45,943 nt of DNA, from the IMG/VR virus record IMGVR_UViG_3300017730_001898, positions 1 through 45,943 of that record, one strand, 5' to 3'. Shown piece by piece: positions 8,650 through 35,997 of this stretch. The notes beneath the pieces were generated by a model that saw only the letters and a program-made list of their open reading frames with translations, was not told the origin of the DNA and ran no database searches. How positions within the stretch are numbered: position 1 is the stretch's first letter; the number at the start of each line of letters is the position of its first letter. Source of the stretch: a virus. The position numbers and the translations under genes are program-made.

Positions 8650-9420
8650 ATGGCAAAGAGAAGATTTAGAATAGAAGGCGGCAGATATGGAGGAGAACTT
8701 GTTTTAGGAGAAGTTAATCCTGCTTTTGCTAGTTACTATGCAGATAAACAAGATGAACTTGTTGATGCAGTTTTAGAAGCAGAAGATTGGGAACCAAAAG
8801 AGGATGAAGATAATGATACATTATTAGATCCAGAGGGATTACCACATCCTGCATTACCTGGTGAAGACTTTTATATGTGGGAAAATGATGGATTTGAACA
8901 TATCAATAGTGCCTATGCAGATGGTGGCTTTACAGTATATGAAGTTCCAGCAGATGGATCAGATGATTATGATCACGAGAAAGAAGTATATGAAGGAGAA
9001 GGGATTCATGTATATGGTAGAGAAGGTGGGTACTTTGGTACTGATGACGAACCAGAAGTTATTAACGAAGAAGACGAAAAAGGCAACAAGTATGTACCTG
9101 TTTTAGCATTTCATAGTTCAGAAAAAGGTGGATTTGGTGCCTGGTTTGTGGAAACAGACGGTGAAGACTTTGATGAATTTAAGTTAGGCTATGGTGTTGT
9201 AGAAACAAATTTAGCAGAATTTATTGATGCAGTTTTTTATGACAAAGTGGAATTAGATACTGATTATGATTACATGGACAGCACCGGTAAAAGTTACGAT
9301 GCCCAAGTAGGCTGGTTAAATATTAAGTGGCATGACAGTCAGGATAACATACACGAAAATATAGATGAATATTTTGAAGAGTTTGATGAAAACGCAGAAT
9401 GGGAAAGGGAAAATAGATGA
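8650..9420 (+). CDS. Highly acidic hypothetical protein
   Basis: A 256-residue soluble protein with about 70 Asp/Glu residues by manual count (roughly 28%) against about 20 Lys/Arg. It begins with a small basic patch (MAKRRFRIEGGRYGG). The rest contains acidic, Tyr/Gly-rich stretches and ends in acidic helices (EYFEEFDENAEW). I recognise no enzyme motif. Strongly acidic phage proteins can mimic DNA to block host nucleases or nucleoid proteins, but that is only a possibility here. GGAGG lies upstream of the ATG, and the stop overlaps the next gene start by 4 nt (ATGA). Confidence 0.75.
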   Translation: MAKRRFRIEGGRYGGELVLGEVNPAFASYYADKQDELVDAVLEAEDWEPKEDEDNDTLLDPEGLPHPALPGEDFYMWENDGFEHINSAYADGGFTVYEVPADGSDDYDHEKEVYEGEGIHVYGREGGYFGTDDEPEVINEEDEKGNKYVPVLAFHSSEKGGFGAWFVETDGEDFDEFKLGYGVVETNLAEFIDAVFYDKVELDTDYDYMDSTGKSYDAQVGWLNIKWHDSQDNIHENIDEYFEEFDENAEWERENR

Positions 9421-10214
9421 AGCGAATTTTAATTTGTGGCCTACCAGGCTCAGGTAAATCTACATTAGCAAGACGTTTGCAAGAAATACTTGGTAATGCT
9501 GTAGTAACAAATGCTGATGAGGTAAGAGAAAAATTTAAAGATTGGGATTTTTCATTAGAAGGCAGAGAGCGACAAATGAAACGTATGCAAGATTATGTTC
9601 GTAAAAGTGTTGCAAAAGGAAATTATGGTATTGCAGACTTTGTATGTCCTACTAATGAGCTCAGAGAAAAGTTTATGCCTGAGTATGTTGTCTGGATGAA
9701 TACTATAGAAGAAGGTAGATTTGAGGATACGAATAAACTGTTTGAAAATCCTACTAAAGATAAAATTAATCTTGAAGTCACTAAAGAGCAATGGTGGTCA
9801 GAAGAAGCAATAGATACAATAGCAAGATTACTAGCAGTTGATATAAAGGATTATGAATTTCAGCCTAAATTGCCTGTAACTCAAATGCTTGGAAGATTCC
9901 AACCTTGGCATGAAGGACACCAAAAATTGTTTGAAAGGGCATTAGCAAAACATGGGCAAGTAGCAGTTATGGTAAGAGATATGCCTTTAACAGAAGATAA
10001 TCCTTGGCAAGTAGACGAAATTTGTGAAAAAATAGAAATAGCACTAGCCGAATTTGCTGGAAAGTTTAGAGTTTATAGTGTACCTAATATAATGAATATT
10101 ACATATGGCAGAGGTGTAGGCTATAAGATTGAAGAAGAAGTTCTTGATGAAGAAACACAAAAAATAAGTGCAACAAAAATCAGAGAACAAATGAGAGATG
10201 ACGGAGAACTTTAA
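9417..10214 (+). CDS. Fusion of APS-kinase-like P-loop domain and NMN-adenylyltransferase-like domain
   Basis: A two-domain enzyme of 265 residues. The N-terminal domain has the P-loop GLPGSGKS at residues 8-15, then a NADEVR motif and the DWDFSLEGRERQ region typical of adenylylsulfate-kinase-like phage proteins. The C-terminal domain (from about residue 155) begins GRFQPWHEGH, an HxGH nucleotidyltransferase signature. It ends with ISATKIR, matching the IS-x-T-x-IR motif of NadM-type NMN adenylyltransferases. Expected chemistry is phosphorylation in the first domain and adenylyl transfer in the second. The real substrates are not shown by sequence, and NAD formation from NMN is the best guess for the second. 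Its ATG overlaps the previous stop, and the next gene overlaps its own end. Confidence 0.8.
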   Translation: MKRILICGLPGSGKSTLARRLQEILGNAVVTNADEVREKFKDWDFSLEGRERQMKRMQDYVRKSVAKGNYGIADFVCPTNELREKFMPEYVVWMNTIEEGRFEDTNKLFENPTKDKINLEVTKEQWWSEEAIDTIARLLAVDIKDYEFQPKLPVTQMLGRFQPWHEGHQKLFERALAKHGQVAVMVRDMPLTEDNPWQVDEICEKIEIALAEFAGKFRVYSVPNIMNITYGRGVGYKIEEEVLDEETQKISATKIREQMRDDGEL

Positions 10215-10630
10215 TGATAATTTTAGTTTACGGACTTCCAGGTTGTGGGAAAACTACTCTAGCAAAAAAATTAATTGCACATTCTAATGGAGATTGTGAC
10301 GTATATCATGCAGACGAAATAAGACAGAAGTTTAATAGAGGAGATCTTTCTATAAATGGTAAGATTAAATTTGCAAAACTTTTAAAAGAACTTGCAGACA
10401 GTAGTAATAAGTCTAATCAAATAATAGACTTTGTAGCACCTACAAAAAATATGAGAGAAGTAATTAATGCAGATTTAAATATATGGGTTAATACAAAGGA
10501 AATTAGTCCATATAAAAAAACAAATGAAATATTTGATATAGAAAAATATGGTAATGTATATGAATACAACGATCATGAAAGTGATCACATGTCAGATATT
10601 TTGCAAATTATACAAGGTTGGAGGTTATGA
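10214..10630 (+). CDS. APS-kinase-like P-loop kinase
   Basis: A 138-residue single-domain P-loop protein with Walker A GLPGCGKT at residues 7-14, an HADEIRQKF segment and an IIDFVAP stretch. These match the N-terminal domain of the preceding fusion protein, so the two genes are probably tandem paralogues. It is shorter than cellular APS kinases (about 200). It could phosphorylate a nucleotide or other small molecule; the annotation adenylylsulfate kinase is by family resemblance only. It sits in the chain of overlapping genes leading to metK. Confidence 0.75.
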   Translation: MIILVYGLPGCGKTTLAKKLIAHSNGDCDVYHADEIRQKFNRGDLSINGKIKFAKLLKELADSSNKSNQIIDFVAPTKNMREVINADLNIWVNTKEISPYKKTNEIFDIEKYGNVYEYNDHESDHMSDILQIIQGWRL

Positions 10631-10920
10631 ATACTGATGGTCATCCTGCTTATACGAGGTATCCACACTTGATGGGAAAAAATTATTATGGTGTTGCTGG
10701 AGATTATATTAACAGCGAAGATAATTTAAGATTTACACCATGGAAAAAAACATTTGCATTTACACCTAAAATTACTGTAAGTGGTAAAAAAGTTTGGTTT
10801 AAGAAAATATATAAAAGGAAAAGATGGCTTAATGTAGAACCACCACAATTTCCTGTAAACAGTTTCAATAAAACGGAATATGCAGAATGGGACGATATAT
10901 TAAATTTAAAAATGAGGTAA
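10627..10920 (+). CDS. Small basic hypothetical protein
   Basis: A 97-residue protein starting at the ATG that overlaps the previous stop (ATGA), with GGAGG at 10619-10624. It is rich in aromatic and Lys residues (KKVWFKKIYKRKRWL). No family is recognised. It ends 3 nt before metK and is therefore in the same operon. Confidence 0.6.
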   Translation: MNTDGHPAYTRYPHLMGKNYYGVAGDYINSEDNLRFTPWKKTFAFTPKITVSGKKVWFKKIYKRKRWLNVEPPQFPVNSFNKTEYAEWDDILNLKMR

Positions 10921-10923
10921 AAT

Positions 10924-12030
10924 ATGTACGAATTTACAAGTGAAAGTGTCAGTAGTGGGCACCCTGATAAAATAGCAGACAAAATATCTGATGCCGTAGC
11001 AACATATTTAATAGATAAAAATATTAATCACAGAGCGGCAGTAGAAACTTTGGTAACCACAAATATGGTTACACTTGCAGGAGAATATAAAAGCAATAAA
11101 TTTAATAAAGATGAAATTGAAGATATTGTTAGAGCAATAGTGCAAGATATAGGTTATGAGCAAGACGGATTTCATTGGGAAAGACTAAAAGTTTATAATG
11201 AACTACATGGGCAAAGTCCAGATATTGCATTAGGAACAGATGATTTTGGTGCAGGTGACCAAGGACTTATGTTTGGTTATGCATGTAACGAGACACCTAA
11301 CTACATGCCTAGTGCAATTTTTTATAGCCATGAGATACTTAAAGTATTAGAAGATGAAAGACGTAAAGGAGATACTTTACTTAACTCTTCATGGTTAGGA
11401 CCAGACAGTAAAGCACAGGTAACCTTTAATTACGACTCTGTTGGCAAACCTATTGATATTAAATCGATTGTTTGTAGTACTCAACATAGTGACGACCTAA
11501 GCATAGAAGAGGTCAGACAACGTGTAATAGACATTATATTGCCTGTAGTAATAGAAAAAATAAATCCAAATACTGTATGGCATATAAATCCAACTGGCAG
11601 ATTTGTAATAGGCGGACCAGATGGTGACACAGGATTGACTGGTAGAAAAATTATTGTTGATACTTATGGAGGTTACGCACCACATGGTGGCGGAGCATTT
11701 AGTGGTAAAGATTGTACAAAAGTAGATAGAAGTGCCGCCTACATGGCTAGATATCTAGCAAAAAATGTAGTTGCAAGTAGTAAAGCAGAAAACTGTACAA
11801 TACAGTTAAGTTATGCTATTGGTATAAAACAACCTACAAGTGTATATGTATATGCAGATGGAAAAGTAAGGCAGGATATTGCAGACGAAATTATTGCTAA
11901 AGTTGATCTTACACCTAAAGGTATTATAGATAAGTTCGATTTATTTAATTTAGACTTAACAGAAACAACAAATTATGGACATTTTGGTAAAGCAAGTATG
12001 CCATGGGAACAGATAGACTTATGGACATAA
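10924..12030 (+). CDS. metK: S-adenosylmethionine synthetase
   Basis: Makes S-adenosylmethionine from methionine and ATP in the cytoplasm. The 368-residue protein is slightly shorter than E. coli MetK (384) but keeps the signatures. The N-terminal ESVSSGHPDKIADKISDAV carries the ATP-binding and metal-binding residues. In the middle it has the GDTGLTGRK motif, and the GGGAFSGKDCTKVDRSAAY segment forms the active-site lysine/aspartate region. A phage-encoded copy would raise SAM supply for methylation or other SAM-dependent reactions, or compensate for a phage SAM-degrading enzyme (none is seen here). It overlaps the next gene, adenine phosphoribosyltransferase. Confidence 0.95.
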   Translation: MYEFTSESVSSGHPDKIADKISDAVATYLIDKNINHRAAVETLVTTNMVTLAGEYKSNKFNKDEIEDIVRAIVQDIGYEQDGFHWERLKVYNELHGQSPDIALGTDDFGAGDQGLMFGYACNETPNYMPSAIFYSHEILKVLEDERRKGDTLLNSSWLGPDSKAQVTFNYDSVGKPIDIKSIVCSTQHSDDLSIEEVRQRVIDIILPVVIEKINPNTVWHINPTGRFVIGGPDGDTGLTGRKIIVDTYGGYAPHGGGAFSGKDCTKVDRSAAYMARYLAKNVVASSKAENCTIQLSYAIGIKQPTSVYVYADGKVRQDIADEIIAKVDLTPKGIIDKFDLFNLDLTETTNYGHFGKASMPWEQIDLWT

Positions 12031-12560
12031 AAGATAGTATAAGAACAGTACCAGACTTTCCTGTAGAAGGAATACAGTTTAGAGACATCACAAGCATGTT
12101 AGAACGCCCAGAAGCGTTCAACAAAGCATTAATAAGTATGAGTAGTGCATGTATGTCCTTTAATGCTACTAAAATTGTTGCAATAGAAAGCAGAGGGTTT
12201 ATATTTGGTTCTCCTTTAGCAAGAGATATGGAATTACCGTTAATATTGGCAAGAAAGCCTGGTAAGTTACCTAACCCTACATATCAGAGAAGTTATGAAT
12301 TAGAATATGGCAAAGCAACGTTGCATATACAACAAAATACAAATTTACAACCTAGTGATAAAATAGTTATAGTTGATGACCTTATTGCTACAGGAGGAAC
12401 AGCAAGAGCATTAGCAAGTTTAATATCTCAATGTTGGAATATACCTAAAGAAAATATTTTAGTTTTGGCTGTGATAGACTTGCCCGATTTAGGTGGAAGT
12501 GCTATAATAAAGGAGCAAGGATTTAATGTGGAAACACTTGTAGAATTTCAAGGAGAATGA
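12021..12560 (+). CDS. apt: Adenine phosphoribosyltransferase
   Basis: Converts adenine and PRPP to AMP plus pyrophosphate (purine salvage). The 179-residue length is normal for Apt. Signatures are an N-terminal SIRTVPDFPVEGIQFRDITS, a KIVAIESRGFIFGSPLA segment, and the PRPP-binding loop IVIVDDLIATGGTA at about residues 114-127. The ATG at 12021 was preferred over the in-frame ATG at 12003 because Apt proteins usually start just before the xIRTxPDFP motif; the start lies within the last codons of metK. Beside metK it could recycle adenine released from SAM by-products, which is an inference. Confidence 0.92.
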   Translation: MDIKDSIRTVPDFPVEGIQFRDITSMLERPEAFNKALISMSSACMSFNATKIVAIESRGFIFGSPLARDMELPLILARKPGKLPNPTYQRSYELEYGKATLHIQQNTNLQPSDKIVIVDDLIATGGTARALASLISQCWNIPKENILVLAVIDLPDLGGSAIIKEQGFNVETLVEFQGE

Positions 12561-20951: not shown

Positions 20952-22208
20952 ATGAGATATGCAGATTTATCAGAAAGTTTTTTAAGGCAAATAATACTTG
21001 AAGCAGAAGGTAAAAATACTCACCTTGAACATTTAGAGGATAATATTTTTAATAAAGGCTTTCAGGGAGCCAAAGATGCAGTAAACTATCTATACAGTTT
21101 ACACGAAATGCTGGAAGGAAATACAAAAACACCAATAAGCATGACAACAAAATGGGACGGTGCACCAGCCGTTGTGGCAGGTAAAGATCCAGAAACAGGT
21201 AAATTTTTTGTAGGAACTAAAGGTGTATTTGCACAAAAGCCTAAAATAAATTTTACAGATAAGGATATAGAAGAAAATCATCCATCAGAAGGATTGCAAG
21301 AAAAATTAAAAACTGCATTGAGAAATTTAAGGAAACTTAATTGGAATACAGTTGCACAAGGTGATATGCTTTATAGTAAAAGCGATTTAGAAACAAAAAC
21401 TATTAATGGAGAGGAAGTATTAATTTTTAAGCCTAATACAATAGTTTATGCAGTACCAACAGATAGTGATTTAGCAAAACAAATTAGCAGTTCTGATATG
21501 GGTATTGTTTGGCATACAGAGTATGTAGGTGGACCTACATTAGCAGATACCCAAGCAAAGTTTGGATTTAATAGCAGTGAACTAGGAAGTACTCCTAGTG
21601 TATGGCACAGAGACGCAATAATAAAAGATTTTAGTGGTACTGTTACATTTACACAAGAAGAAAGTGATAATGTAATGAGTGCTATTAGTGAAGCAGATAA
21701 CTATTTAAAAAGTATTGATTCTGAAACATTTGGTTGGCTAGAAAAAGGAAACGATCTAATAGGTAAAGACTTTTTACAACAATTAAAGGCTCATGTAAAT
21801 AATAACATCAGAGCAGGAGCATTTGACGAGCCTACGAAATTTGCACAAGGGTTTGTACAAAAGTATATAGATTTCATGCAAAAGAAAATAGACGGTTATA
21901 AGACAGAAAAGAAACAAGAAGAAATGACTGAAAAATTAGTACAGGGTGTTAAGTTTATTAAAGAACATGTTCCTGGTATTGTTGCTGTTTATGATTTGTA
22001 TTTAAAACTTATTGAAGCAAAGATAAGGATAGTTAAAAAGTTAGAAACAATTAGACAGTTACCTACATTTAAAGAAACAGACAACGGTTATGAAGTGACA
22101 GGCGAAGAAGGATTTGTTGCTGTAGACAGAATGGGTAATGCATTAAAACTAGTAGATAGACTGGAGTTTAGCAGACTAAACTTTGGAACAGGAATACCAG
22201 GCAAATAA
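20952..22208 (+). CDS. KxDG nucleotidyltransferase-like protein with capsid-targeting-like N-terminus
   Basis: A 418-residue protein. TTKWDGAPAVV at about residues 65-75 carries K-x-D-G, the motif I lysine signature of covalent nucleotidyltransferases (DNA/RNA ligases). It is followed by FFVGTKGVF, an AQGDMLYS motif-III-like strand and a VLIFKPNTIVYAVP segment. I recognise this as a conserved cyanophage family (I believe DUF6267), with no demonstrated activity known to me. The N-terminus MRYADLSESFLRQIILEA contains I-L-E|A, a good prohead-protease site, suggesting packaging in the head. The C-terminal third is helical and basic. It belongs to the late operon from 19699. Confidence 0.7.
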   Translation: MRYADLSESFLRQIILEAEGKNTHLEHLEDNIFNKGFQGAKDAVNYLYSLHEMLEGNTKTPISMTTKWDGAPAVVAGKDPETGKFFVGTKGVFAQKPKINFTDKDIEENHPSEGLQEKLKTALRNLRKLNWNTVAQGDMLYSKSDLETKTINGEEVLIFKPNTIVYAVPTDSDLAKQISSSDMGIVWHTEYVGGPTLADTQAKFGFNSSELGSTPSVWHRDAIIKDFSGTVTFTQEESDNVMSAISEADNYLKSIDSETFGWLEKGNDLIGKDFLQQLKAHVNNNIRAGAFDEPTKFAQGFVQKYIDFMQKKIDGYKTEKKQEEMTEKLVQGVKFIKEHVPGIVAVYDLYLKLIEAKIRIVKKLETIRQLPTFKETDNGYEVTGEEGFVAVDRMGNALKLVDRLEFSRLNFGTGIPGK

Positions 22209-22209
22209 A

Positions 22210-23007
22210 ATGGACTTTAAATTAATAGATAAAGAAATATCAGAAGCAAGGTTGTATAGAACTACATCAGGCTTCAATCAACTTACTGGTGAGTCTGTAG
22301 CAGAATTATTATATTTAAATACTCTAATAACTTTTTTAATGTATAAAGATGATAAACAACATGATTTTGCAAAGTCTTATGCAAAACAAAGCACACAATA
22401 TGGAAAATATACACTATTTAGAAGTCATGCAACAGATTTATATTTGTTAGCATATTTGGTATCTAATCCTGACAGCAAAAGTATTAAACTAAGAAATAAA
22501 CTCAGCAGTAAAAAACATTTAGATAGCCTTAAGTTTGATAAGAAAACACATTGGCAATTTATGTTTAAGTTAGCAAATGATAGAATAACAGATACTGTGG
22601 CAAGTCCATATCTGTTTAGATTGGAAAGCCAACTAAAGATTAAAAAATCCATGTACAAGCAATGGCGTAGATTAATAATGGATTGGGAAAATTTAAGATA
22701 TATACAAAGGCAGAGCGTTACAACCAGAATAGTACAGGAGTTAAGACGTTTAGGCAGAGGCAGTGAGTTAATGACACCTATGACTAGTATGCTTAAATAC
22801 AAAAAATACAGAGTAAGAGACAAGGTTACTAAAACAGATCCAATGAAGAGATTGGGTGGTACTGTGGCAGGAGCAGTTGCAGGTCGTTATGCGGGTAAAA
22901 AGATTGCACAAAAACTAAATAAGAATGTAGATAAATATAAGAAAGCAGGAACAGGACTTGGCGCAATAGCAGGTTATTGGGCAAGTGGAAGGCAAAGACA
23001 AAAATGA
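22210..23007 (+). CDS. Putative packaged protein with glycine zipper
   Basis: A 265-residue basic protein. The ATG at 22210 is 1 nt after the previous stop; an in-frame TTG at 22183 is less likely. The N-terminus MDFKLIDKEISEARLY contains I-S-E|A, a match to the T4 prohead-protease consensus. The middle is helical and basic. The C-terminus has LGGTVAGAVAGRYAGKKIA and GTGLGAIAGYWASG, paired glycine-zipper helices like those of membrane-inserting or channel-forming peptides. It may be an ejected protein that acts at the host membrane. No enzyme motif is seen. Its stop overlaps the next ATG. Confidence 0.65.
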   Translation: MDFKLIDKEISEARLYRTTSGFNQLTGESVAELLYLNTLITFLMYKDDKQHDFAKSYAKQSTQYGKYTLFRSHATDLYLLAYLVSNPDSKSIKLRNKLSSKKHLDSLKFDKKTHWQFMFKLANDRITDTVASPYLFRLESQLKIKKSMYKQWRRLIMDWENLRYIQRQSVTTRIVQELRRLGRGSELMTPMTSMLKYKKYRVRDKVTKTDPMKRLGGTVAGAVAGRYAGKKIAQKLNKNVDKYKKAGTGLGAIAGYWASGRQRQK

Positions 23008-23576
23008 AAATAAACGACATATTAAGTGAAGCACCAGCAGTAGGATCAGGTCCTAGTGCCGCAATGGCACGAGGTTCAGAAGAAGTTAGAGCTGACTTAG
23101 AATTTGCTACACTTAAAAAGTTTAGTCCAAAATTTGCAAATGAATTTAAACAAAAGTTCCAATTATTAGGTAAATCCAGTGTTGATGCGGCTTATCAGGC
23201 GGCGGCTGAATCAAACCCTGCTTTTGGTTTGTCAGTTGCAGATGCAAAAGGAATAGCCAGTGCAGAACATGGCTCCGCAGATTATAATTCCAAGATGAAT
23301 GCATTTATATCTGCTATGCCAGACAAATATAAAAGTGTTAAAAAACAATTTAGAAAAATAGATACACCAGCATTATCCAAAGCGGCGGCTGGCCAAAGAG
23401 GCTGGAGCGATGAAACACATGGCCATTTAAGAAAGGGTACACAAGACTTCTTAAAGAAAATGAAGGTGGCTGGGCAAGACAAAATGGCAGATATCAAAGG
23501 CGGTTGGGATATTGGTGCTAAATTAGGTACTTTCTTAAGCAAACCTGTTGGTGTTAGCAGAGTCAAACGTAATTAA
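23004..23576 (+). CDS. Putative packaged internal head protein
   Basis: A 190-residue Ala/Lys/Ser-rich helical protein. The ATG at 23004 overlaps the upstream stop (ATGA); a TTG at 22977 is a weaker alternative. The N-terminus MKINDILSEAPAVGSG matches both the form and the cleavage site (L-S-E|A) of T4 capsid-targeting sequences. No domain is recognised. It is last in the late operon from 19699 and is followed by the late box of the small-protein array. Confidence 0.65.
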   Translation: MKINDILSEAPAVGSGPSAAMARGSEEVRADLEFATLKKFSPKFANEFKQKFQLLGKSSVDAAYQAAAESNPAFGLSVADAKGIASAEHGSADYNSKMNAFISAMPDKYKSVKKQFRKIDTPALSKAAAGQRGWSDETHGHLRKGTQDFLKKMKVAGQDKMADIKGGWDIGAKLGTFLSKPVGVSRVKRN

Positions 23577-23608: not shown

Positions 23609-23616
23609 GATAAATA
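23609..23616 (+). promoter_or_regulatory. Late promoter box, array gene 1
   Basis: GATAAATA 46 nt before the ATG at 23663. A 5' stem-loop follows at 23625-23640 and an AGGAGA ribosome-binding site lies before the ATG. Confidence 0.75.
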
Positions 23617-23624
23617 ATGGTAAC

Positions 23625-23640
23625 GCATAGATTTCTATGC
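23625..23640 (+). promoter_or_regulatory. 5'-UTR stem-loop, array gene 1
   Basis: GCATAG at 23625-23630 pairs with CTATGC at 23635-23640 around an ATTT loop. It lies a few nt after the expected late start site, so it would sit at the mRNA 5' end. Confidence 0.6.
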
Positions 23641-23662
23641 ATAACAATTTAGGAGAAACCAA

Positions 23663-24007
23663 ATGGCACAAACAAAAGGAAACGGAGCCGGTGTTGCTGA
23701 ATTTGTAACAGGAAGTCTTATTTCAAGACACAACCTAGCGGCAATTTTAGTTGATACGGGTGCAGATTTAAGAACAGAAGATGATGCAACTGGTGAAGCA
23801 GTTGAAAAAGCATTACAAATGATTCAACCATTAATGTACGAAGTAACAGACGACAACAGTGGTAAAATTCATTGTATCGTTGACGGAAGTCAGTTAGATG
23901 CGGCATCTTTACAAATCCAACTAAGAGCAATTGGCACATCAGCAGTTAATAGTTATAACTTTGCAACAGCAACAGTAACTTTAGGTACTGGTATGGTAGT
24001 TAGTTAA
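23663..24007 (+). CDS. Small virion-type protein, array member 1
   Basis: A 114-residue protein starting MAQTKGNGAG. It has a helix-strand-strand pattern with IHCIVDGSQLDA, and ends ATATVTLGTGMVV. It resembles array members 2 and 3 in start, length and the h-h-V-x-G segment, and shares the closing A-T/S-x-T pattern with member 3. It has no enzymatic motif. It is a complete single-gene late cassette (late box, 5' stem-loop, strong ribosome-binding site, terminator), which predicts very high late expression. This is typical of a capsid-decoration, tail or other abundant virion protein. Confidence 0.75.
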   Translation: MAQTKGNGAGVAEFVTGSLISRHNLAAILVDTGADLRTEDDATGEAVEKALQMIQPLMYEVTDDNSGKIHCIVDGSQLDAASLQIQLRAIGTSAVNSYNFATATVTLGTGMVVS

Positions 24008-24025
24008 GTTTAAACTTAATATAAA

Positions 24026-24051
24026 GAAGGGCATTTTACATGCCCTTTTTT
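24026..24051 (+). terminator. Intrinsic terminator, array gene 1
   Basis: AAGGGCAT at 24026-24033 pairs with ATGCCCTT at 24039-24046 around TTTAC and is followed by a T-tract. Confidence 0.92.
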
Positions 24052-24062
24052 TATGGAAAAAT

Positions 24063-24070
24063 GATAAATA
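24063..24070 (+). promoter_or_regulatory. Late promoter box, array gene 2
   Basis: GATAAATA in AAAAATGATAAATA, just after the first array terminator and 46 nt before the ATG at 24117. Confidence 0.78.
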
Positions 24071-24078
24071 AAGTTAAA

Positions 24079-24096
24079 GCAGTAATTAATTACTGC
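24079..24096 (+). promoter_or_regulatory. 5'-UTR palindrome, array gene 2
   Basis: An 18-nt perfect palindrome, GCAGTAATT then AATTACTGC. It begins 8 nt after the late box, so it would form a stem at the mRNA 5' end. Confidence 0.65.
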
Positions 24097-24116
24097 AAAA
24101 ATTTAGGAGAATTACA

Positions 24117-24386
24117 ATGGCACAAACGGATAGAAGAGCAGTAGCGGCAGGTGAGTTTATTGGTAAAGATGTATTCCTTAAGAGTTTTACTCAACAATCA
24201 GGTAACATTTCACAGACTCAACTAGACGCACTAGTTAGCTCAGTAACAAATTTAAATCTAACAGTTTTAAAAATTGGTGATATCACTATAGGTGGTCAAG
24301 CAGTTGTTAGAATGATAGTAGAAGGTGCGGATAACCTAGCAAACGGTGACATAGCAGGTCACGTTATTGCAGACGTCACATTCTAA
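24117..24386 (+). CDS. Small virion-type protein, array member 2
   Basis: An 89-residue protein starting MAQTDRRAV, the shortest array member. It contains TQLDALVSSVTNLNLTVLKI and VVRMIVEGADNLA, a helix-strand-strand pattern like members 1 and 3. It has its own late box, 5' palindrome, TTAGGAGA ribosome-binding site and terminator. Function is unknown; it is probably an abundant virion component. Confidence 0.72.
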   Translation: MAQTDRRAVAAGEFIGKDVFLKSFTQQSGNISQTQLDALVSSVTNLNLTVLKIGDITIGGQAVVRMIVEGADNLANGDIAGHVIADVTF

Positions 24387-24405
24387 GTTAATTTAAACTT
24401 ATTTA

Positions 24406-24434
24406 AAAATCCTCACTAGTTGGGGATTTTTTTT
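24406..24434 (+). terminator. Intrinsic terminator, array gene 2
   Basis: AAATCCTC pairs with GGGGATTT (one G-T pair) around ACTAGTT, and is followed by an eight-T run. Confidence 0.85.
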
Positions 24435-24446
24435 GGCTGAAAAAAA

Positions 24447-24454
24447 GATAAATA
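24447..24454 (+). promoter_or_regulatory. Late promoter box, array gene 3
   Basis: GATAAATA 47 nt before the ATG at 24502, directly after the second array terminator. Confidence 0.75.
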
Positions 24455-24463
24455 CATGTAAGA

Positions 24464-24482
24464 CTACTGCAATAAGCAGTAG
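24464..24482 (+). promoter_or_regulatory. 5'-UTR stem-loop, array gene 3
   Basis: CTACTGC at 24464-24470 pairs with GCAGTAG at 24476-24482 around AATAA, close to the expected late start site. The stem shares the bases CAGTA/TACTG with the palindrome of array gene 2. Confidence 0.65.
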
Positions 24483-24501
24483 AGTAACATAGGAGAATAA
24501 C

Positions 24502-24873
24502 ATGGCACAAACTAAAGTAAATCCTGTATATGTAAATGAAGAAAAGTTTTTTATAGGTTTAAAGCCAACATTTTTTGAAGTAACATTTGGAGCGGCCGTA
24601 AACGCAAAAACTGGACCTTCAAGTACAATACAAACAGTTATACATGCTATTTTAAATGAAAATCTTTCAATCCTAGGCATGAGTGCATTGTATGACACAA
24701 ATCAAACAATAGCATTTATGGTTGACGGTGAGAAAGGTACTGACACATATGACGGATCAAACAGTGAAACCTTAGCGGCTCACTTAGAAGACGTTATTAT
24801 AGCATTAGGCACAGTTGATGGAATCAACTTAGCAAGTGCTACATGTACAGCAAAAACATTTGCATTAGCATAA
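24502..24873 (+). CDS. Small virion-type protein, array member 3
   Basis: A 123-residue protein starting MAQTKVNP. It contains TIQTVIHAILNENLSILGM, TIAFMVDGEKGTD, and a closing VIIALGTVDGINLASATCTA. The last two align by eye with IHCIVDGSQLDA and LRAIGTSAVN...FATATVT of member 1, so the two are probably paralogues. It has its own late box, 5' stem-loop, TAGGAGA ribosome-binding site and terminator. It is likely an abundant virion protein. Confidence 0.72.
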   Translation: MAQTKVNPVYVNEEKFFIGLKPTFFEVTFGAAVNAKTGPSSTIQTVIHAILNENLSILGMSALYDTNQTIAFMVDGEKGTDTYDGSNSETLAAHLEDVIIALGTVDGINLASATCTAKTFALA

Positions 24874-24892
24874 ACTTATCTTAGTTGAAAAG

Positions 24893-24914
24893 ACCACCCT
24901 AGGGTGGTTTTTTC
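24893..24914 (+). terminator. Intrinsic terminator, array gene 3
   Basis: ACCACC pairs with GGTGGT around CTAG (24893-24908) and is followed by a T-rich tract TTTTC. Confidence 0.88.
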
Positions 24915-24950
24915 TTGAGTACAATTTCTGACGATCATTTTAACAAAGTC

Positions 24951-24958
24951 GATAAATA
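24951..24958 (+). promoter_or_regulatory. Late promoter box, array gene 4
   Basis: GATAAATA 30 nt before the ATG at 24989. Confidence 0.72.
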
Positions 24959-24974
24959 GTAGATACAGACACAG

Positions 24975-24988
24975 AATATGGAGATATT
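24975..24988 (+). promoter_or_regulatory. Stem-loop presenting the ribosome-binding site, array gene 4
   Basis: AATAT at 24975-24979 can pair with ATATT at 24984-24988, leaving GGAG as a four-base loop directly before the ATG. The stem is weak (five A-T pairs). Confidence 0.35.
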
Positions 24989-25396
24989 ATGGTAACAGGA
25001 GAAAGAAGTGGAGCAATGGGAAGTTCGGAAGTTGTTTCCGGCAATATAGAATTTTATACTTTGTTTACCACTATTAACATTACAAGCACAGGAGATTTTT
25101 CAGATAATACACAGAAAGACTTTGAAAGTGTAGTACAAGTGATAGGGTTAAGAGCACAACCAGTTGTTATGAATAATCCAGTTTCACTAAATGGAGTAGG
25201 AGCTCAGGTACTAGAAAATTATGGTGCACCAACACTAACAGGAGCAGGTTATATTTTTAAATTTGCTTTTGAAAGAGAAGGAGTCCATTCCATAGATACA
25301 CTTAAAAATGAATTAAATGGAATAGTACTTAACGGTGGTACAATAGATACTACAAGTACAGTAAATATGGAATTTAGTAAACAAGATTTATTATAG
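24989..25396 (+). CDS. Small virion-type protein, array member 4
   Basis: A 135-residue protein, more diverged than the first three. The helix FESVVQVIGLRAQPVVM, the strand YIFKFAFEREG and the helix SIDTLKNELNGIVL give the same helix-strand-helix order. It has its own late box but no terminator after it, so transcription can run on into the following membrane protein and cargo genes. Function is unknown; it is probably virion-related. Confidence 0.68.
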   Translation: MVTGERSGAMGSSEVVSGNIEFYTLFTTINITSTGDFSDNTQKDFESVVQVIGLRAQPVVMNNPVSLNGVGAQVLENYGAPTLTGAGYIFKFAFEREGVHSIDTLKNELNGIVLNGGTIDTTSTVNMEFSKQDLL

Positions 25397-25404
25397 AGTA
25401 AAAC

Positions 25405-25644
25405 ATGCCTAAAAAGAACGAACCAGAATTAACACCTAAGCCTTATGTAGAAAGTGGTAATATAGAAGCACATATAATTGCAGACATGCTTCGTATAGAA
25501 TCAATATCATCAGAATTAAAAGAATTTAAAGAAGTTACAAAAGAAAGATTAAACAAACTAGAGAGTTGGATAATTGCTATTGTAGGATTAACCTTTACGA
25601 CATTGGTTACTACAGTAGTTGGATTATTAATGAAAATGCTATGA
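25405..25644 (+). CDS. XhlA-like small membrane protein, possible holin partner
   Basis: A 79-residue protein with a polar N-terminus and an amphipathic coiled-coil-like helix (about 30-52, ISSELKEFKEVTKERLNKLE). One C-terminal transmembrane helix follows (about 53-77, WIIAIVGLTFTTLVTTVVGLLM). This layout matches haemolysin XhlA-type proteins, which assist holin-mediated lysis in some phages. It is late, between virion genes and cargo genes. No endolysin is seen in the window, so the lysis role is tentative. Its stop overlaps the next ATG. Confidence 0.6.
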   Translation: MPKKNEPELTPKPYVESGNIEAHIIADMLRIESISSELKEFKEVTKERLNKLESWIIAIVGLTFTTLVTTVVGLLMKML

Positions 25645-25925
25645 GATTAGAAGAATTTACAGATGAGCCTATTATAGAAGCCAGAATGGTTTGGCGTAAA
25701 ATGGGTAACACAGTAAAACGTGCTATCAGATGTACAAGTGGTAGACGCAAAGGTAGAGTAGTGAGTAATCCTAGTCAATGCAATAAGCCTATAGATTTTA
25801 GAAAACGTTTAACAATGAAGAAAACAAAAGCAAGATTGGGTGCAAGAATGTCTAGACGAGCACAAAGAACTAAACGTTTTAATATACAAAGCAAAAGAGT
25901 AAAAGCACTTAATAAGAGAAGATAA
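25641..25925 (+). CDS. Very basic small late protein with prohead-protease-like site
   Basis: A 94-residue protein whose ATG at 25641 overlaps the preceding stop (ATGA). The N-terminus MRLEEFTDEPIIEARM contains I-I-E|A, a match to the prohead-protease consensus. The remaining 80 residues are extremely rich in Arg and Lys (CTSGRRKGRVVS, MSRRAQRTKRF) and have a Cys pair. This composition fits a DNA-binding protein packaged with the genome, like the basic T4 internal proteins. Similar basic proteins (SGRRKGR motif) are familiar from marine T4-like phages, without known function. Its stop overlaps the giant gene start. Confidence 0.7.
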   Translation: MRLEEFTDEPIIEARMVWRKMGNTVKRAIRCTSGRRKGRVVSNPSQCNKPIDFRKRLTMKKTKARLGARMSRRAQRTKRFNIQSKRVKALNKRR

Positions 25926-28900
25926 TGAAGTTTAAAGATGTTAAAACTTTAGAACATTTATTAAAAGAGTATGGTGCATCTTCAGGTGGAGGTGCAGTAG
26001 GTGGTGGTGGACACGGTGCTAGTGCAAAAGCAAATAAGTCTAAAAAATCTATAGCAAGTGGACCAGATGTTAGTACTGCATCTCCAACTGTAACAGGACA
26101 ACCTGCACAAAAACCTCAACAAGCAAAGCCAAGTACTAATCAAGTAAAAGCAAAAGATTTACAAGACGGCGATATGGTTGTCAGCAAAGATGGTAAAACG
26201 GCAGAAGTATATTCTAAAGTAGGGCAAGGAAACAATCCTAGTGCATTAATTACAAAAGACAAACAAGGCAATCTAGCAGAAATACCAAAAGACGAAACAG
26301 TAGATGCTATACAACCAAATAAACCAGGAGAGTTAGATACCATACCTGATGAAAAAGAAAGAACAAGTTTCAAAGATAGAATTAAGCAAGGAATGGCATT
26401 AGGAAATAAAATTGCTGGTGTAGATGAAGGTAAGTTAGGTAAACTTGCTAAAGGCAAAGGTAGAAAATTACAAATTAGAAAATTAAAAGGTAAAATTAAA
26501 AGACTTGCTAAATCAAAATTAAAAGAAGCAAATCCAAAATTATTTGAAATAAACTTTAACAGAAAAAGTGTAGCAAGAGAAGCCTTAGATACTCCAGTAA
26601 AATGTGGTTTTGAAGCAGAAACATTTTTCTATAATGTTGAAGGTGGCAATAGTTCTCATGTTGATGATATGAGTATCGGAGACATTGAGTACGAATACGG
26701 TGACTTACCAGATAGTGCATATGAAGATTATAGATCATGGTTATATGATAAAGGACAAGAAGATTATTTAGACGACCTAGTAGCAGATAAAATTCAGGAA
26801 GTTAAAGAAGATGAAGACTGGCTAGATGAGTTTATAGATAGTAGCTCAGGTCCAAGTTCAGAAGCAATAGAAAGATATAAAGACGATTTCCAAGACGCCG
26901 ATCCCAAAGAATACGAAAACCGTGAAGAAGATGGTTGGACTTATATAAACTGGGTAAGAGAATATGTTGAAGAAGAATACGAAGATGAATACCATGAATG
27001 GTTAGATGGTGCGGTTAGAGAAGATTACAATTTAGATGATGAAGCCACAGAGGCCGCTGAACAAGACTACAGTATGGACGATTGGGTATATGACAACTAT
27101 AGTTATATGAGTGATTTCCTAAATGATTATGGTTATGAATATAGTGATGGAGGCGGAGATGTTGAACAAGTTGCCTCAGAATTACATACTTGGGCTGAGA
27201 ACAACAGTAAATTTACGGACTTTCCGGAATCAGGGGATTACGGTGATACTTATACCACAACTGCTTGGGCTGTGGAAAAAGATAGCAGTATCGAACCTGA
27301 TGAAGGTACTGGTGCAGAACTTATATCACCGGTATTTGATAGTCCCAGAAAAATGCTTTCTGAAATGAAAAGTTTATTTGACTGGAGTGAAGAAAACTTT
27401 GGAACAAATAATTCAACAGGACTTCACGTTACTATGAGTTGGAACGGTGAACCAGATGCACCTGTGGATGAGAACGGTAGAAGGGAAGGCCAAGAACTTA
27501 ACAAATTAAAAATGGCATTACTGTTAGGTGACCCGTACTTACTAGCAGAATTTGGTAGACTTAGAAACAGTTATACAAAAAGCCAATATAATAATATATT
27601 AAAATATGCCGAAGGTATGAAACGTGGAGATGCTAACAGTTTGGAAGAGTTTGAAAAAATGTTATCAAAAGGAATAGATACAGGTAAATTTAATACTATC
27701 CACTTTAAGGATGATAAGGACAGAGACTCAAATAATAAACTTATAGAGTTTAGAATAGCCGGTGGTGCAGATTACAATGAAATGTATGAAAAAGTTGTAA
27801 AAGCAGTTGTGCGATATGCTACTGTGATGAAAGCAGGATATGATAAAAATGCATACAGAGATGATTATGTTAATGCAGTATTTAGGTTATTGCGTAAATC
27901 ACAGGAAATAGATCCTAAAAAATTAAAAGATTTAGAAGTTGTTAATCATCCTATAATAGATTCAGCAAAAGAAATAGTTGGTAAAAAGGATTACTTTGAT
28001 GTTGTAAGGTATTTAAGTAATAGTGTGGAATACTATAACGAGTATAAAAACTTATCTGATCCAGATGCAGATAAAAAATGGAAACAAAGTATAAAAGATT
28101 ATAAAAAAGGCACTGGCAGAGATCCAAGTTGGGTGGGCGAAGCAGAAGAAGGCGAATCAATAACTGGTTACATAGAGCCAAGTAGCATGCCACCAAGTAA
28201 GAGGGCAGAAGGCAGATTCCAAAAATCACAAGAGAGTTTTATTAATGCTGTTGTAATTTTGTCTAGAGATATAGCAGATGGTATTACTAGAGGCTCTGTA
28301 AGAGCTAAAGACATTAGTATATTTAGAGATTATTCCAAACAATTAGAATTAGACGATAAAAAATTACAAGGATTGGCCTTAAGGCAATTAAACGACCAAA
28401 ACTACAACGGTACAGATAAAGAAAATATAGCAAGACTTAAAAAAGGAATAGATACTTTATTTAAAAGGGATATAATACAAGAGCCAGGATTTATGTCCCA
28501 TCAGGATGTAGATGTAATATTAAAACAATTATGGCAATTCTTCCAAACAGATGATAGTGATGATTATCATAAAAGAGTTGAATTAGCAGATTTGCTAATA
28601 GGTGCAAATCCAAATATGGCAGGTCTTGGAAACAATAAAGATGATGATGAAAAGCATGGCCTAGTAATGGATTTTTTACAAGAAATTTCTCATACAAGAC
28701 AATTAAATACTTTTGTTGCTAAACTCAGAGGATCAGGTTACGGTAATTATATTACACCAATTGAATCTGGTAAAATGACAAATCAAGATGAAGTAGAAAG
28801 TCTTAAGAAATTTTTAGAGCCTTATGGAGGATATGATCATCCTACAAGTAAGGATCATCATATAAACATCAAAAGTGATGACAAGTATGAAGATGTAGCA

Positions 28901-31900
28901 AAAAGTTCTCTAATACAAAAATGTAGAACTAGATTAGACTATATAAAAGATCTACAAAACAGTGAACCAGAAAAGTATCAAAAAATTAAAACTAAACTAA
29001 TAAAAATAGGTGAGACTCTTGTAGATACTATAGTTGCACCTGAAGATGGAGAAGGCATAGAAGGTGCTGATATTACTGATAAAGATGGAACAAATATAAG
29101 TGGATTTATAAAAGATCAATATAATAGGCAAGATAGTTGGTGTCTTAATTTACATCGTAGGGATTGGAATAATACAAAGGATTTTCTAGCCAAATCAGGA
29201 GATAAAGACGACGACACATATAATTTTACTTCAGCATATGACGATTATGTTGTAAGAAATCCATTTAGTATGGTTTTAGATTATTATAAAAGTAAAAGTG
29301 ACTTCGCTAATATACATAAAAATTCAGAAGTTAAAAAGATTGTTAAAAATAACTTTGCAGGCTTTAAAAAGTTTTTTAATGAGTTTGATAAAATATTTAC
29401 ATCAGAAGGATTTACAGATCTTAAAGCAGAGATATCAGATAAAGACAGATACGATAAACGTAACAAAGACTTTGAAAAAAATGTTAGAGATAATGCTAAA
29501 GCCAAGTTAAATATTCCTAGTCATAGTTTTATATATTTCGATAAAGATTTTTGGGAAACACTCACAGACAATAGTTATGCTGACAGAGGGCCATGGCTAG
29601 ATAATAATTTAGATCATTTTGGAGATGACCTTAACAAAGAAGGTAAAATTTATGTTATACCTTCAGCACATTGGTCACAGGCCGACGATGCATTTAATGG
29701 TTTGGATCTTATAAAGAATTTTGAAAATGCTAAAAATTATTTTCATACATGGCGTAGAATAGGATATAATAAAATACTCAGCAAGTTCATGGCCAAATAT
29801 AATGTATCTTTTGAAAATCTTACAGATAGACAAGGTAAGTATATGTCTCAACCTGATAATATGGAATCAACTTTAAGTGATTTTGCTATTGAGGTTACAC
29901 ATAAAGGTGATAGCAGATCCGGTGCGCCTGGGCAAGAAGATTTAGTTCCAACAGAAGATTTAGAAAATCCAAACAGTGGTGAGCCAATTAATAGAGGTTC
30001 TGCAATGATGTGGGATCAGAGTACAGACGATGCAGAGAAAAAACGTTTTGATGCATTTGATTGGGGATTGTATCCAACAAAAATGAAAGATGTTGTTGCT
30101 AAAGAAATGGAAAACGAATCTAGTTTCCAACTGGCATTACAAAATGTACTACAGAAAGTTCTTGATAATAAAGTAGATATAGATCAAAATGATTTAGGCT
30201 TGCCTGATGAAAAAATTATGTATGCGGCTGGTGTAGATGGTAGCGAGTTAGAAGGTAAAGCATCAAATACTATATCACAGAAAGCAAATTGGACTAACCT
30301 AGCAGATTATTTAAAATTAGAACGTGGTGTAAATGATCAGGGTGTAAACTTACTTAAAAAAGTACACAGTCAGTATGACAGTGACGGCCAAAAATATAGA
30401 ACAAAAGACGATAATATTACTGTGGGAATGGAAAGATGGCTATTGGCTGTAAAAGATGCTATTAAATATATAGAAACAAATTATAAAGTTAGTGGCGGTA
30501 ACTATTTTAGAGATGGCGATGATGTAAGTGATGTACATAGTTCAACAACAGACCACGAAAGCGGAGTTGCAATAGAAGATTACGATGAAATGCGTAGTAA
30601 ATATTTTAATTTTAATGCTATGATGATGAATGGTATGCAAAATTATTTAGTACAAACAGATGTAAACAGACTGGTAGGATTCCTTAAAAATCCAGACAAT
30701 GATGAAGAATTTAAAAAGGATGTTTTACAAAGCATGATGAGAGAAAGAGAATTAGGAATGGAACCAAATGACTTCCAAGGTGCATTAGCCAGGGGTAGAA
30801 TGTATTCTCAACGTCAAAGAGAAAGTGTGTTTAATAGATTTGAAAATTTGCCTTTAGAGGAACAATTAACAATTATATCTAAATCTAAAGTATTAGAAAA
30901 TTTAAGTAAAAAAAGCGAAGGTCCATCTAGTGATGCTTTGCCAGACAATAGTATTCCTTATCTGCTTAATAAACTACTTGCTGAGCCTATGAAGGCAGGA
31001 GATCTTAGAAAGCAAATGGATGCATATTGGGCCTTACCAGTACCTCAAATGCTATCAGATTTTAGAGCCGTAAGAGCACAAGGCGGCAAAGAAGCAGATT
31101 GCAGAAATATTTTGAAGCAGTATATTAATTCACAACTAGATCCACAAATTAAAAAGCATGTAAAACTTGTAGAAAATAAAGATGATGTAATTGATAGAAT
31201 AAAAGGACTACCAGATGAAGATAAGCAAACAGACAAAGTAGTTCAATATATAGAACAATTATTAGATGATATGGGAGTAGGTGGTAGATTAGCCAGTTTG
31301 ACATCTAATTTAGAAGATATAGATGACGAGGAAGTTAAAAAATCTAATGTAAAACTTGCTAAAATAATTTCAAGTATAGAAATGACACCATTAGAAAGAG
31401 CACAACTGTTTGCAAGTTGGAAACAAGATAAATTAATAGATGTTAAAAAATTACTTTCAGGTAATGGGCAAACATTTAGTGAAGTATTTAAAGGGTATGG
31501 AGACGAAATTTATATGACAGAACTTATAGACGATTTAGCGGATGTAGATTCATATGGTATAGGTGCAGGAGAGTTTTTACTTGCAGTATTAAGTCAGAAA
31601 ATAAAAGGTATTGGTTCAACAGGCGGTTCAGGAGATTTACTAATAGATGGTAGAAATGTAGAAGTAAAAACAAAAACAAGCCGAAATGCTCGTTTTAAAG
31701 ACTGGCATGTACAACCTGACCAAACATGGGCAAGTAAAGTAGAAAAATTTAAACAAGACTTTGCAGACATAGATGAGGTTTCAGGTGCGGCAACAACAGG
31801 AATGAACTCTACGCAATTAAGTGCTATGTTAAAAAATCCTGTATTGCAACAAAATCCTGAAAGGAAGAAACAAGCATTATTAAGTATTATGGCTATATTT

Positions 31901-32197
31901 AAAGCAACTAATACTAACTTATCGTCAGCACAATATAAAGAATTAGTAAATTTATTAGATGCAGGAGATGACTCAGCATTTAAACAAAAATATGGTGCAT
32001 ATAATATACTTAACTATTTAAATATTAAACGTAGTGATGGGGAATTAGAGGGTATATTATTCATGAATAAGAAAACTAAAACAGTTCATTATGTTAAAGA
32101 TTTAAATGACATACAAAATTTAGCATTAGAGGTAGGAACAATTTATCCTATTAGTACAAATAGTATATATCCTTATCCTCAAATAGGAGTCAAATAA
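25925..32197 (+). CDS. Giant polyvalent protein with amidoligase-like and PD-(D/E)XK nuclease-like domains
   Basis: A 2090-residue protein, the largest in the window. The N-terminus MKFKDVKTLEHLLKEYGA has the cargo-type start, followed by a Gly/Lys/Pro-rich linker to about residue 120. An amidoligase-like domain spans about residues 225-700. It shows CGFEAETFF near 227 (GxExE type), GTGAELISPVF near 461, and STGLHVTMSW near 497, the motifs of glutamine-synthetase-fold amidoligases. A long, highly charged helical middle follows. Near the C-terminus GAGEFLL (about 1880) and GDLLIDGRNVEVKTK (about 1902-1916) give the E, D and ExK residues of a PD-(D/E)XK nuclease. Multi-domain giants of this kind are known as phage polyvalent proteins, thought to be delivered with the DNA. 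Domain calls are by motif only. Confidence 0.7.
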   Translation: MKFKDVKTLEHLLKEYGASSGGGAVGGGGHGASAKANKSKKSIASGPDVSTASPTVTGQPAQKPQQAKPSTNQVKAKDLQDGDMVVSKDGKTAEVYSKVGQGNNPSALITKDKQGNLAEIPKDETVDAIQPNKPGELDTIPDEKERTSFKDRIKQGMALGNKIAGVDEGKLGKLAKGKGRKLQIRKLKGKIKRLAKSKLKEANPKLFEINFNRKSVAREALDTPVKCGFEAETFFYNVEGGNSSHVDDMSIGDIEYEYGDLPDSAYEDYRSWLYDKGQEDYLDDLVADKIQEVKEDEDWLDEFIDSSSGPSSEAIERYKDDFQDADPKEYENREEDGWTYINWVREYVEEEYEDEYHEWLDGAVREDYNLDDEATEAAEQDYSMDDWVYDNYSYMSDFLNDYGYEYSDGGGDVEQVASELHTWAENNSKFTDFPESGDYGDTYTTTAWAVEKDSSIEPDEGTGAELISPVFDSPRKMLSEMKSLFDWSEENFGTNNSTGLHVTMSWNGEPDAPVDENGRREGQELNKLKMALLLGDPYLLAEFGRLRNSYTKSQYNNILKYAEGMKRGDANSLEEFEKMLSKGIDTGKFNTIHFKDDKDRDSNNKLIEFRIAGGADYNEMYEKVVKAVVRYATVMKAGYDKNAYRDDYVNAVFRLLRKSQEIDPKKLKDLEVVNHPIIDSAKEIVGKKDYFDVVRYLSNSVEYYNEYKNLSDPDADKKWKQSIKDYKKGTGRDPSWVGEAEEGESITGYIEPSSMPPSKRAEGRFQKSQESFINAVVILSRDIADGITRGSVRAKDISIFRDYSKQLELDDKKLQGLALRQLNDQNYNGTDKENIARLKKGIDTLFKRDIIQEPGFMSHQDVDVILKQLWQFFQTDDSDDYHKRVELADLLIGANPNMAGLGNNKDDDEKHGLVMDFLQEISHTRQLNTFVAKLRGSGYGNYITPIESGKMTNQDEVESLKKFLEPYGGYDHPTSKDHHINIKSDDKYEDVAKSSLIQKCRTRLDYIKDLQNSEPEKYQKIKTKLIKIGETLVDTIVAPEDGEGIEGADITDKDGTNISGFIKDQYNRQDSWCLNLHRRDWNNTKDFLAKSGDKDDDTYNFTSAYDDYVVRNPFSMVLDYYKSKSDFANIHKNSEVKKIVKNNFAGFKKFFNEFDKIFTSEGFTDLKAEISDKDRYDKRNKDFEKNVRDNAKAKLNIPSHSFIYFDKDFWETLTDNSYADRGPWLDNNLDHFGDDLNKEGKIYVIPSAHWSQADDAFNGLDLIKNFENAKNYFHTWRRIGYNKILSKFMAKYNVSFENLTDRQGKYMSQPDNMESTLSDFAIEVTHKGDSRSGAPGQEDLVPTEDLENPNSGEPINRGSAMMWDQSTDDAEKKRFDAFDWGLYPTKMKDVVAKEMENESSFQLALQNVLQKVLDNKVDIDQNDLGLPDEKIMYAAGVDGSELEGKASNTISQKANWTNLADYLKLERGVNDQGVNLLKKVHSQYDSDGQKYRTKDDNITVGMERWLLAVKDAIKYIETNYKVSGGNYFRDGDDVSDVHSSTTDHESGVAIEDYDEMRSKYFNFNAMMMNGMQNYLVQTDVNRLVGFLKNPDNDEEFKKDVLQSMMRERELGMEPNDFQGALARGRMYSQRQRESVFNRFENLPLEEQLTIISKSKVLENLSKKSEGPSSDALPDNSIPYLLNKLLAEPMKAGDLRKQMDAYWALPVPQMLSDFRAVRAQGGKEADCRNILKQYINSQLDPQIKKHVKLVENKDDVIDRIKGLPDEDKQTDKVVQYIEQLLDDMGVGGRLASLTSNLEDIDDEEVKKSNVKLAKIISSIEMTPLERAQLFASWKQDKLIDVKKLLSGNGQTFSEVFKGYGDEIYMTELIDDLADVDSYGIGAGEFLLAVLSQKIKGIGSTGGSGDLLIDGRNVEVKTKTSRNARFKDWHVQPDQTWASKVEKFKQDFADIDEVSGAATTGMNSTQLSAMLKNPVLQQNPERKKQALLSIMAIFKATNTNLSSAQYKELVNLLDAGDDSAFKQKYGAYNILNYLNIKRSDGELEGILFMNKKTKTVHYVKDLNDIQNLALEVGTIYPISTNSIYPYPQIGVK

Positions 32198-35649: not shown

Positions 35650-35997
35650 ATGCTTATTAAGGACATAATTAACGAAACAACCAGTAGTGGCGGTATAGCC
35701 AGTGTGGCAGTACCAATGAATAGTGATATTATAAAACGACCTGGTCCCGTAGTTAAAAAGAAAAAGAAGAAAACAACAGAAGATCAAGTTCCATATTTGC
35801 AGAGACCCAACTCACCATATGAATTAGGAAAGCAAGAATACCTACGTAAGAATCCAGGCAAAACAGAAGAAGATTTCAAAGAGTTATTGCCCAATCAACA
35901 AAACAAATACTTGGACAAGTATGTTGAAGGAAAATCTCCACACAAAAAAGGCACCAAAAAATATAAAAAACACATGGCGGCCATGCACGCCGGTTAA
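35650..35997 (+). CDS. Small basic late protein with capsid-targeting-like N-terminus
   Basis: A 115-residue protein starting MLIKDIINETTSSGG. The I-N-E|T site is close to the prohead-protease consensus, and the start matches the cargo-type pattern. The rest is rich in Lys and Pro (VVKKKKKKTTED, SPHKKGTKKYKKHM) and is probably DNA-binding or disordered. Function is unknown. It is followed 1 nt later by the next small gene. Confidence 0.6.
   Translation: MLIKDIINETTSSGGIASVAVPMNSDIIKRPGPVVKKKKKKTTEDQVPYLQRPNSPYELGKQEYLRKNPGKTEEDFKELLPNQQNKYLDKYVEGKSPHKKGTKKYKKHMAAMHAG

Follow-up and report, generated by a model that had tools for sequence, protein, structure and literature searches.

Hairpins at the 5' end of an mRNA hinder both RppH and RNase E, and the bacterial mRNAs stabilized in this way combine such a hairpin with a free ribosome-binding site (PMC3997798). 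Among late virion genes, the accessory proteins Soc and Hoc of phage T4, present at 810 and 155 copies per head, respectively (PMC9026906), which decorate the capsid, offer a likeness to the proteins described here, Soc being small as well; the soc mRNA, however, sequesters its own start site (PMC3014915).

The window, 45,943 nt of the IMG/VR virus record IMGVR_UViG_3300017730_001898, contains an array of four small genes that bears on both systems. The leaders of its first three genes resemble those of the stabilized bacterial mRNAs in pairing a 5'-terminal hairpin with a free ribosome-binding site, but here the hairpin is the repeated, standard leader of phage late virion genes, and its effect is predicted. 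The free ribosome-binding sites also set the array apart from soc, and no sequence link to Soc or Hoc was found in PHROG, Pfam or NCBIfam, families of this kind being fast to diverge. We consider it probable that the four genes belong to a marine phage of the T4-like (jumbo) type and specify small, paralogous virion proteins, for which an accessory role on the head surface is the likeliest, and that these are expressed from insulated late units.

Anatomy of the array

The four genes (F1 to F4) lie on the plus strand and encode proteins of 114, 89, 123 and 135 aa, in agreement with the 89-135 residues given by a sequence-only reading of this DNA, which had also assigned a late box to each gene, and a 5' stem-loop, a strong ribosome-binding site and an intrinsic terminator to the first three. 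All of these elements were found. The box of gene 1, an exact GATAAATA (23609-23616), is followed by the hairpin GCATAG-ATTT-CTATGC (23625-23640), about 3 nt from the transcript start expected from T4, by the ORF (23663-24007) and by a terminator, AAGGGCAT-TTTAC-ATGCCCTT with a T run (24027-24053), which was detected in our own scan and also listed as an inverted repeat. Gene 2 repeats this layout with an exact box (24063-24070), the hairpin GCAGTAA-TTAA-TTACTGC (24079-24096), the ORF (24117-24386) and, in our own scan, the terminator AAATCCTC...GGGGATTT with a T run (24406-24435), and so does gene 3 (exact box, 24447-24454; hairpin CTACTGC-AATAA-GCAGTAG, 24464-24482; ORF, 24502-24873; terminator ACCACCCTAGGGTGGT with a T run, again from our own scan, 24891-24914). 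The ribosome-binding sites of these three genes are of the GGAG type. Gene 4 (24989-25396), the last member, has an exact box as well (24951-24958) and has neither a 5' hairpin nor a terminator; the next ORF, a 79-aa gene whose family adjoins gene 4 in relatives too, starts 8 nt later (25405-25644). Genes 1-3 are thus self-contained monocistronic units and an operon begins with gene 4, so that the earlier proposal of separate transcription units stands for the first three genes but not for the fourth.

Across the window, the exact GATAAATA occurs 11 times on the plus strand, 4 of these in the array, and 0 times on the minus strand; the reversed pattern, taken as a control, occurs 3 times. The box is of the T4 late type, (T/N)ATAAATA, supporting the late expression proposed before, and it precedes all four genes here and the corresponding genes in nearly all relatives. 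Its position -13 varies among T4-like phages (PMC1524935).

Upstream of the array lies a 190-aa gene (23004-23576) whose N-terminus resembles the capsid-targeting propeptides described in T4 (PMC9026906), a similarity that we treat as a lead only. Similar N-termini, each followed by a protease site as in MKINDILSE|AP and MLIKDIINE|TT, were also seen in the genes at 20952-22208, 22210-23007, 25641-25925 and 35650-35997. All five genes fall within 21-36 kb of the window, and they possibly encode packaged or ejected proteins.

Conservation and apparent exchange of the cassettes

Relatives were drawn from IMG/VR with genes 1, 2 and 3 and an alignment of gene 4, giving 88 distinct arrays; a relative of gene 4 was encoded on 281 stretches in one IMG/VR scan. 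Because a standard terminator scan listed only minus-strand readings at the array, we used our own scan and compared it with shuffled sequences. Terminator-like sites were present 3' of every distinct relative of F1 (16/16), F2 (58/58) and F3 (19/19), as well as of the families c1 (95% of 40), c7 (7/7) and c9 (2/2) from sister arrays, and in 1% of the 77 gene 4 units, as compared with 0-5% in dinucleotide shuffles. The units counted include related phages and are not independent, and these percentages therefore measure conservation rather than independent events.

The 5' untranslated regions of the units other than gene 4 fold more stably than their shuffles (mean z of -2.2 to -3.8), with a mean z of -0.2 for gene 4. 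Hairpins with 5 bp or more occurred in 91 of 126 distinct leaders, and these 91 had 57 different 5' arms, indicating that the pairing is kept while the sequence changes. The ribosome-binding site was unpaired in 117/126 leaders. Across the distinct leaders the stem begins a median of 8 nt 3' of the late box; as this box spans -13 to -6 in T4 (PMC1524935), the inferred 5' end would lie about 3 nt before the hairpin. A reading of the hairpins as small RNAs was dropped because they sit within the leaders of conserved ORFs; an Rfam search at a relaxed threshold gave matches only far under the gathering scores.

In a relative of 250,519 bp (G001), the combination of hairpin and terminator is largely confined to the array. 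Of the late boxes in this genome, 44 stand 5' of ORFs that have a ribosome-binding site, and a hairpin (z <= -2 and <= -4 kcal/mol) and a terminator occurred together in 3/3 upstream array genes and in 1/41 other late-box genes (Fisher p about 3e-4), the exception being a 1063-aa fibre-like gene. The major capsid gene of this genome does not have the format, there being no late box directly 5' of it. Codon usage, compared with that of the major capsid and sheath genes in G001, placed the array at ranks 30-81 of 227, values that are uninformative on expression and lend nothing to the earlier conjecture of precise, very high dosing.

From this anatomy a course of expression can be proposed. The box predicts that a gp55-type late RNA polymerase would initiate some 6 nt 3' of each GATAAATA, and the transcripts of genes 1-3 would then begin about 3 nt before the hairpin, leaving the ribosome-binding site free. 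The hairpin should block the entry of RppH and RNase E, and the strong terminators would end these transcripts, yielding short, stable mRNAs dosed independently of their neighbours. Overall, genes 1-3 very likely form insulated, stable late units, and we infer that the products of the array are abundant accessory proteins on the particle.

Copy number, which the earlier reading had suggested comparing in related phages, does vary. Gene 4 closed the array in 85/85 cases for which the upstream sequence sufficed; 55 of these arrays had two genes before it, 21 had three, 5 had a single one and 4 had no gene there. The upstream genes occur in diverse orders (F2-c1, c1-F2, F1-F2, F3-c7, F1-F2-F3 as here, F2-F1-F3, c1-F2-F2 and others), and in three of the four arrays with none (L114, L115 and L116) a 353-aa gene, located around 4854-5915, takes the place of the cassettes, with the upstream gene on one side and gene 4 on the other. 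Several families have terminator types in common, and some types are bound to a slot: the AGCACTC and AGCACAC terminators were found solely directly 5' of gene 4, on F2, c7, c9 or F1. Permutation tests on 28 de-duplicated patterns showed terminator type to vary with the slot when families were taken one at a time (p 0.002), and with the family when slots were (p 0.005). That the GCACwC terminator stays before gene 4 while the family changes (F2, c7, c9) suggests exchange at short shared flanks, and slot-bound terminators fit an exchange of ORFs relative to terminators, a pattern that shared ancestry can inflate.

We picture gene 4 as the conserved member and operon head, 5' of which cassettes would be gained, lost and reordered, and some fitted anew to terminators already in place, as the pattern across arrays indicates. 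That the format is kept while genes are swapped, added and reordered suggests an adjustable, abundant part of the particle. A more specific and rather doubtful version is that the locus consists of fixed late expression slots, in which virion-protein ORFs are swapped between phages to give each phage its own combination of surface proteins.

Two fragments without gene 4 carry a gene-1 cassette elsewhere (L030:5001-5345 and L032:5001-5348), with its own late box, between the genes for head closure and the terminase large subunit. The second of these has a further late-box gene 5' of the cassette, encoding 147 aa, with no family match.

Kinship of the proteins and cultured relatives

Profile comparison links the four proteins and the three sister-array families into one superfamily. 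F1 and F3 are connected via intermediates in BLAST linkage and by HHalign of enlarged alignments (92%), bearing out the likeness of members 1 and 3 noticed by eye, and the relation of member 2 is supported by the F2-F3 match (77%). Further links by the same comparison were F1-c7 (95%), c1-c9 (85%), F2-c1 (65%), c7-F4 (61%) and c7 to EST35_0233 of phage PA5oct (79%), and nothing above 15% was obtained between the array families and seven neighbouring control families. HHalign was rerun without the first 16 residues, taking out the shared MAQT start: F1-c7 (87%), c7-EST35_0233 (81%), F1-F3 (80%) and F2-F3 (55%) were retained, and F2-c1 and c7-F4 both fell below the 15% report line. The loss of c7-F4 on trimming implies that the link of gene 4 leans on the N-terminal arm together with structure.

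Modelled with AlphaFold2, gene 1 (pLDDT 73, pTM 0.65) and gene 4 (pLDDT 69, pTM 0.63) have in common a beta-alpha-beta-beta-alpha-beta order. The best structural matches were HMA domains for gene 1 (Z 7.7, rmsd 2.3, 74 aligned) and RRM, ribosomal protein S6 and ACT-type domains for gene 4 (Z 7.1-6.2). Z-scores under 8 can mean a common arrangement only, and with moderate confidence we assign genes 1 and 4 a shared ferredoxin-like order. The products of the array may accordingly be imagined as an N-terminal arm joined to a ferredoxin-like alpha/beta domain, assembling on the particle, a picture with moderate support. In a review of decoration proteins there is no mention of a ferredoxin fold (PMC7602432).

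Small accessory phage virion proteins are usually unrecognisable by sequence, and Pfam, PHROG and NCBIfam scans of the four proteins gave nothing usable. A sequence search of the PDB returned no useful match for genes 1 and 4 and two weak, unrelated rows for gene 2; among cultured phages, a DNA search found no match, and tblastn found none for gene 1 and only E 0.4 for gene 3. In a library of viral models, gene 4 matched its homologue in Agrobacterium phage Atu_ph07 and a few uncharacterised phage proteins.

Gene 4 is the member that leads to cultured phages, with homologues in PA5oct (EST35_0234; 44% identity over 79% of the query, E 2e-18), in Salicola phage SCTP-2 (41% identity) and in Atu_ph07 (33%). 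PA5oct has a two-gene array with late boxes, a hairpin and a terminator on the first gene and the gene 4 homologue second; it differs in its host and in having one c7-type upstream cassette in place of F1, F2 and F3. This first gene, EST35_0233, is the only match to the c7 profile in the 287-kb PA5oct genome (E 5e-4; E 2.5e-7 when the locus proteins alone are searched), and it carries GATAAATA, GGAG and the 5' hairpin TACAAAG-GAAA-CTTTGTA, with a terminator, GAAAGGGCTT...AAGCCCTTTC, standing 5' of the gene 4 homologue. The order DnaB helicase, small conserved gene, array, w36658-like virion protein, exonuclease, virion structural gene and nrdA is also common to both phages. Callisto, a close relative of PA5oct, groups with T4-like viruses (PMC11079468). 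The resemblance is less complete in the other two phages, which have only one or two members (gp13-gp14 in SCTP-2): gp14 fits the gene 4 profile (E 3e-6) and T4-type boxes precede both gp14 and the Atu_ph07 gene, but gp14 is without a clear hairpin-terminator format.

The adjacent EST35_0233 and EST35_0234 are both annotated 'structural protein, ESI-MS/MS' in the PA5oct record. By homology and through this annotation, the array products are very probably virion proteins, as the sequence-only reading had held. That reading had named unrelated predicted folds and absence from virions as refuting outcomes; as far as this test went, the opposite was seen, with linked profiles, similar models for genes 1 and 4 and the PA5oct virion annotation. 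Accessory late virion proteins are themselves already known; the format of these small virion-protein genes is real, conserved and unnamed in the libraries searched. This DNA format (late box, 5' hairpin and terminator) marks such proteins in uncultivated, widespread T4-like phages and can serve as a search rule, with PA5oct as a tractable cultured model and the array as a testable case of dose-insulated genes reshuffled on the virion.

Location in the particle

The likeliest site for these proteins is the outer head, as decoration, rather than the tail or the interior, a placement that we make tentatively. It is preferred because of the head and packaging neighbours, because the small, multi-copy Soc is a known analogue in T4, and because every member lacks the capsid-targeting-like N-terminus that five neighbouring genes have. 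Two downstream genes match 'head and packaging' virion families, PHROG labels that are broad.

It is unlikely, in our estimate, that the products are associated with the tail, neck or fibres (for example, as sheath decorations or whiskers) and expressed in the same way. Detection in PA5oct virions cannot tell head from tail, the gene-1 cassette of L030 has tail tube genes only a few genes away as well, and the only other gene with hairpin and terminator in G001 is the fibre-like one; however, most of the array's neighbours in the window are something other than tail genes, two of them having the head-type matches above, and Pfam, PHROG and NCBIfam scans revealed no similarity to tail families. 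The members' small size, single-domain build and head-type gene neighbours disfavour the fibre tips proposed earlier.

Packaging inside the head followed by ejection, as for the T4 internal proteins, appears more improbable still. The T4 internal proteins are likewise small and multiple (PMC9026906), and the five genes with propeptide-like N-termini and cleavage sites surround the array, but such an N-terminus (pattern [LIV]xE[AGST]) is absent in 4/4 array proteins, which start with MAQT-like sequences or with MV/MS and keep the arm. Least probable are non-structural late RRM/ferredoxin-like proteins that bind their own mRNA hairpins and contaminate virions, since, although the fold class includes many RNA-binding domains and T4 autoregulators such as that of gene 43 bind leader hairpins (PMC3014915), the hairpin sequence is unconserved here (57 arms/91), the ribosome-binding site stays unpaired, a hairpin is missing from gene 4 and two adjacent members were detected in PA5oct particles.

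Several other ORFs in the window are of note in their own right. Directly 3' of the array operon lies a gene for a 2090-aa protein (25925-32197), which starts MKFKDVKTLEHLLKEYG and has no PHROG match. A 561-aa ORF (4463-6148) reads like a TonB-dependent outer-membrane receptor with plug and barrel, unusual for a phage, and has only a weak PHROG match of unknown function (E 8e-6). The region 9417-12560 appears metabolic by eye, with ORFs resembling nucleotide kinases/nucleotidyltransferases, one ORF (10924-12030) resembling S-adenosylmethionine synthetase and another (12003-12560) resembling adenine phosphoribosyltransferase.
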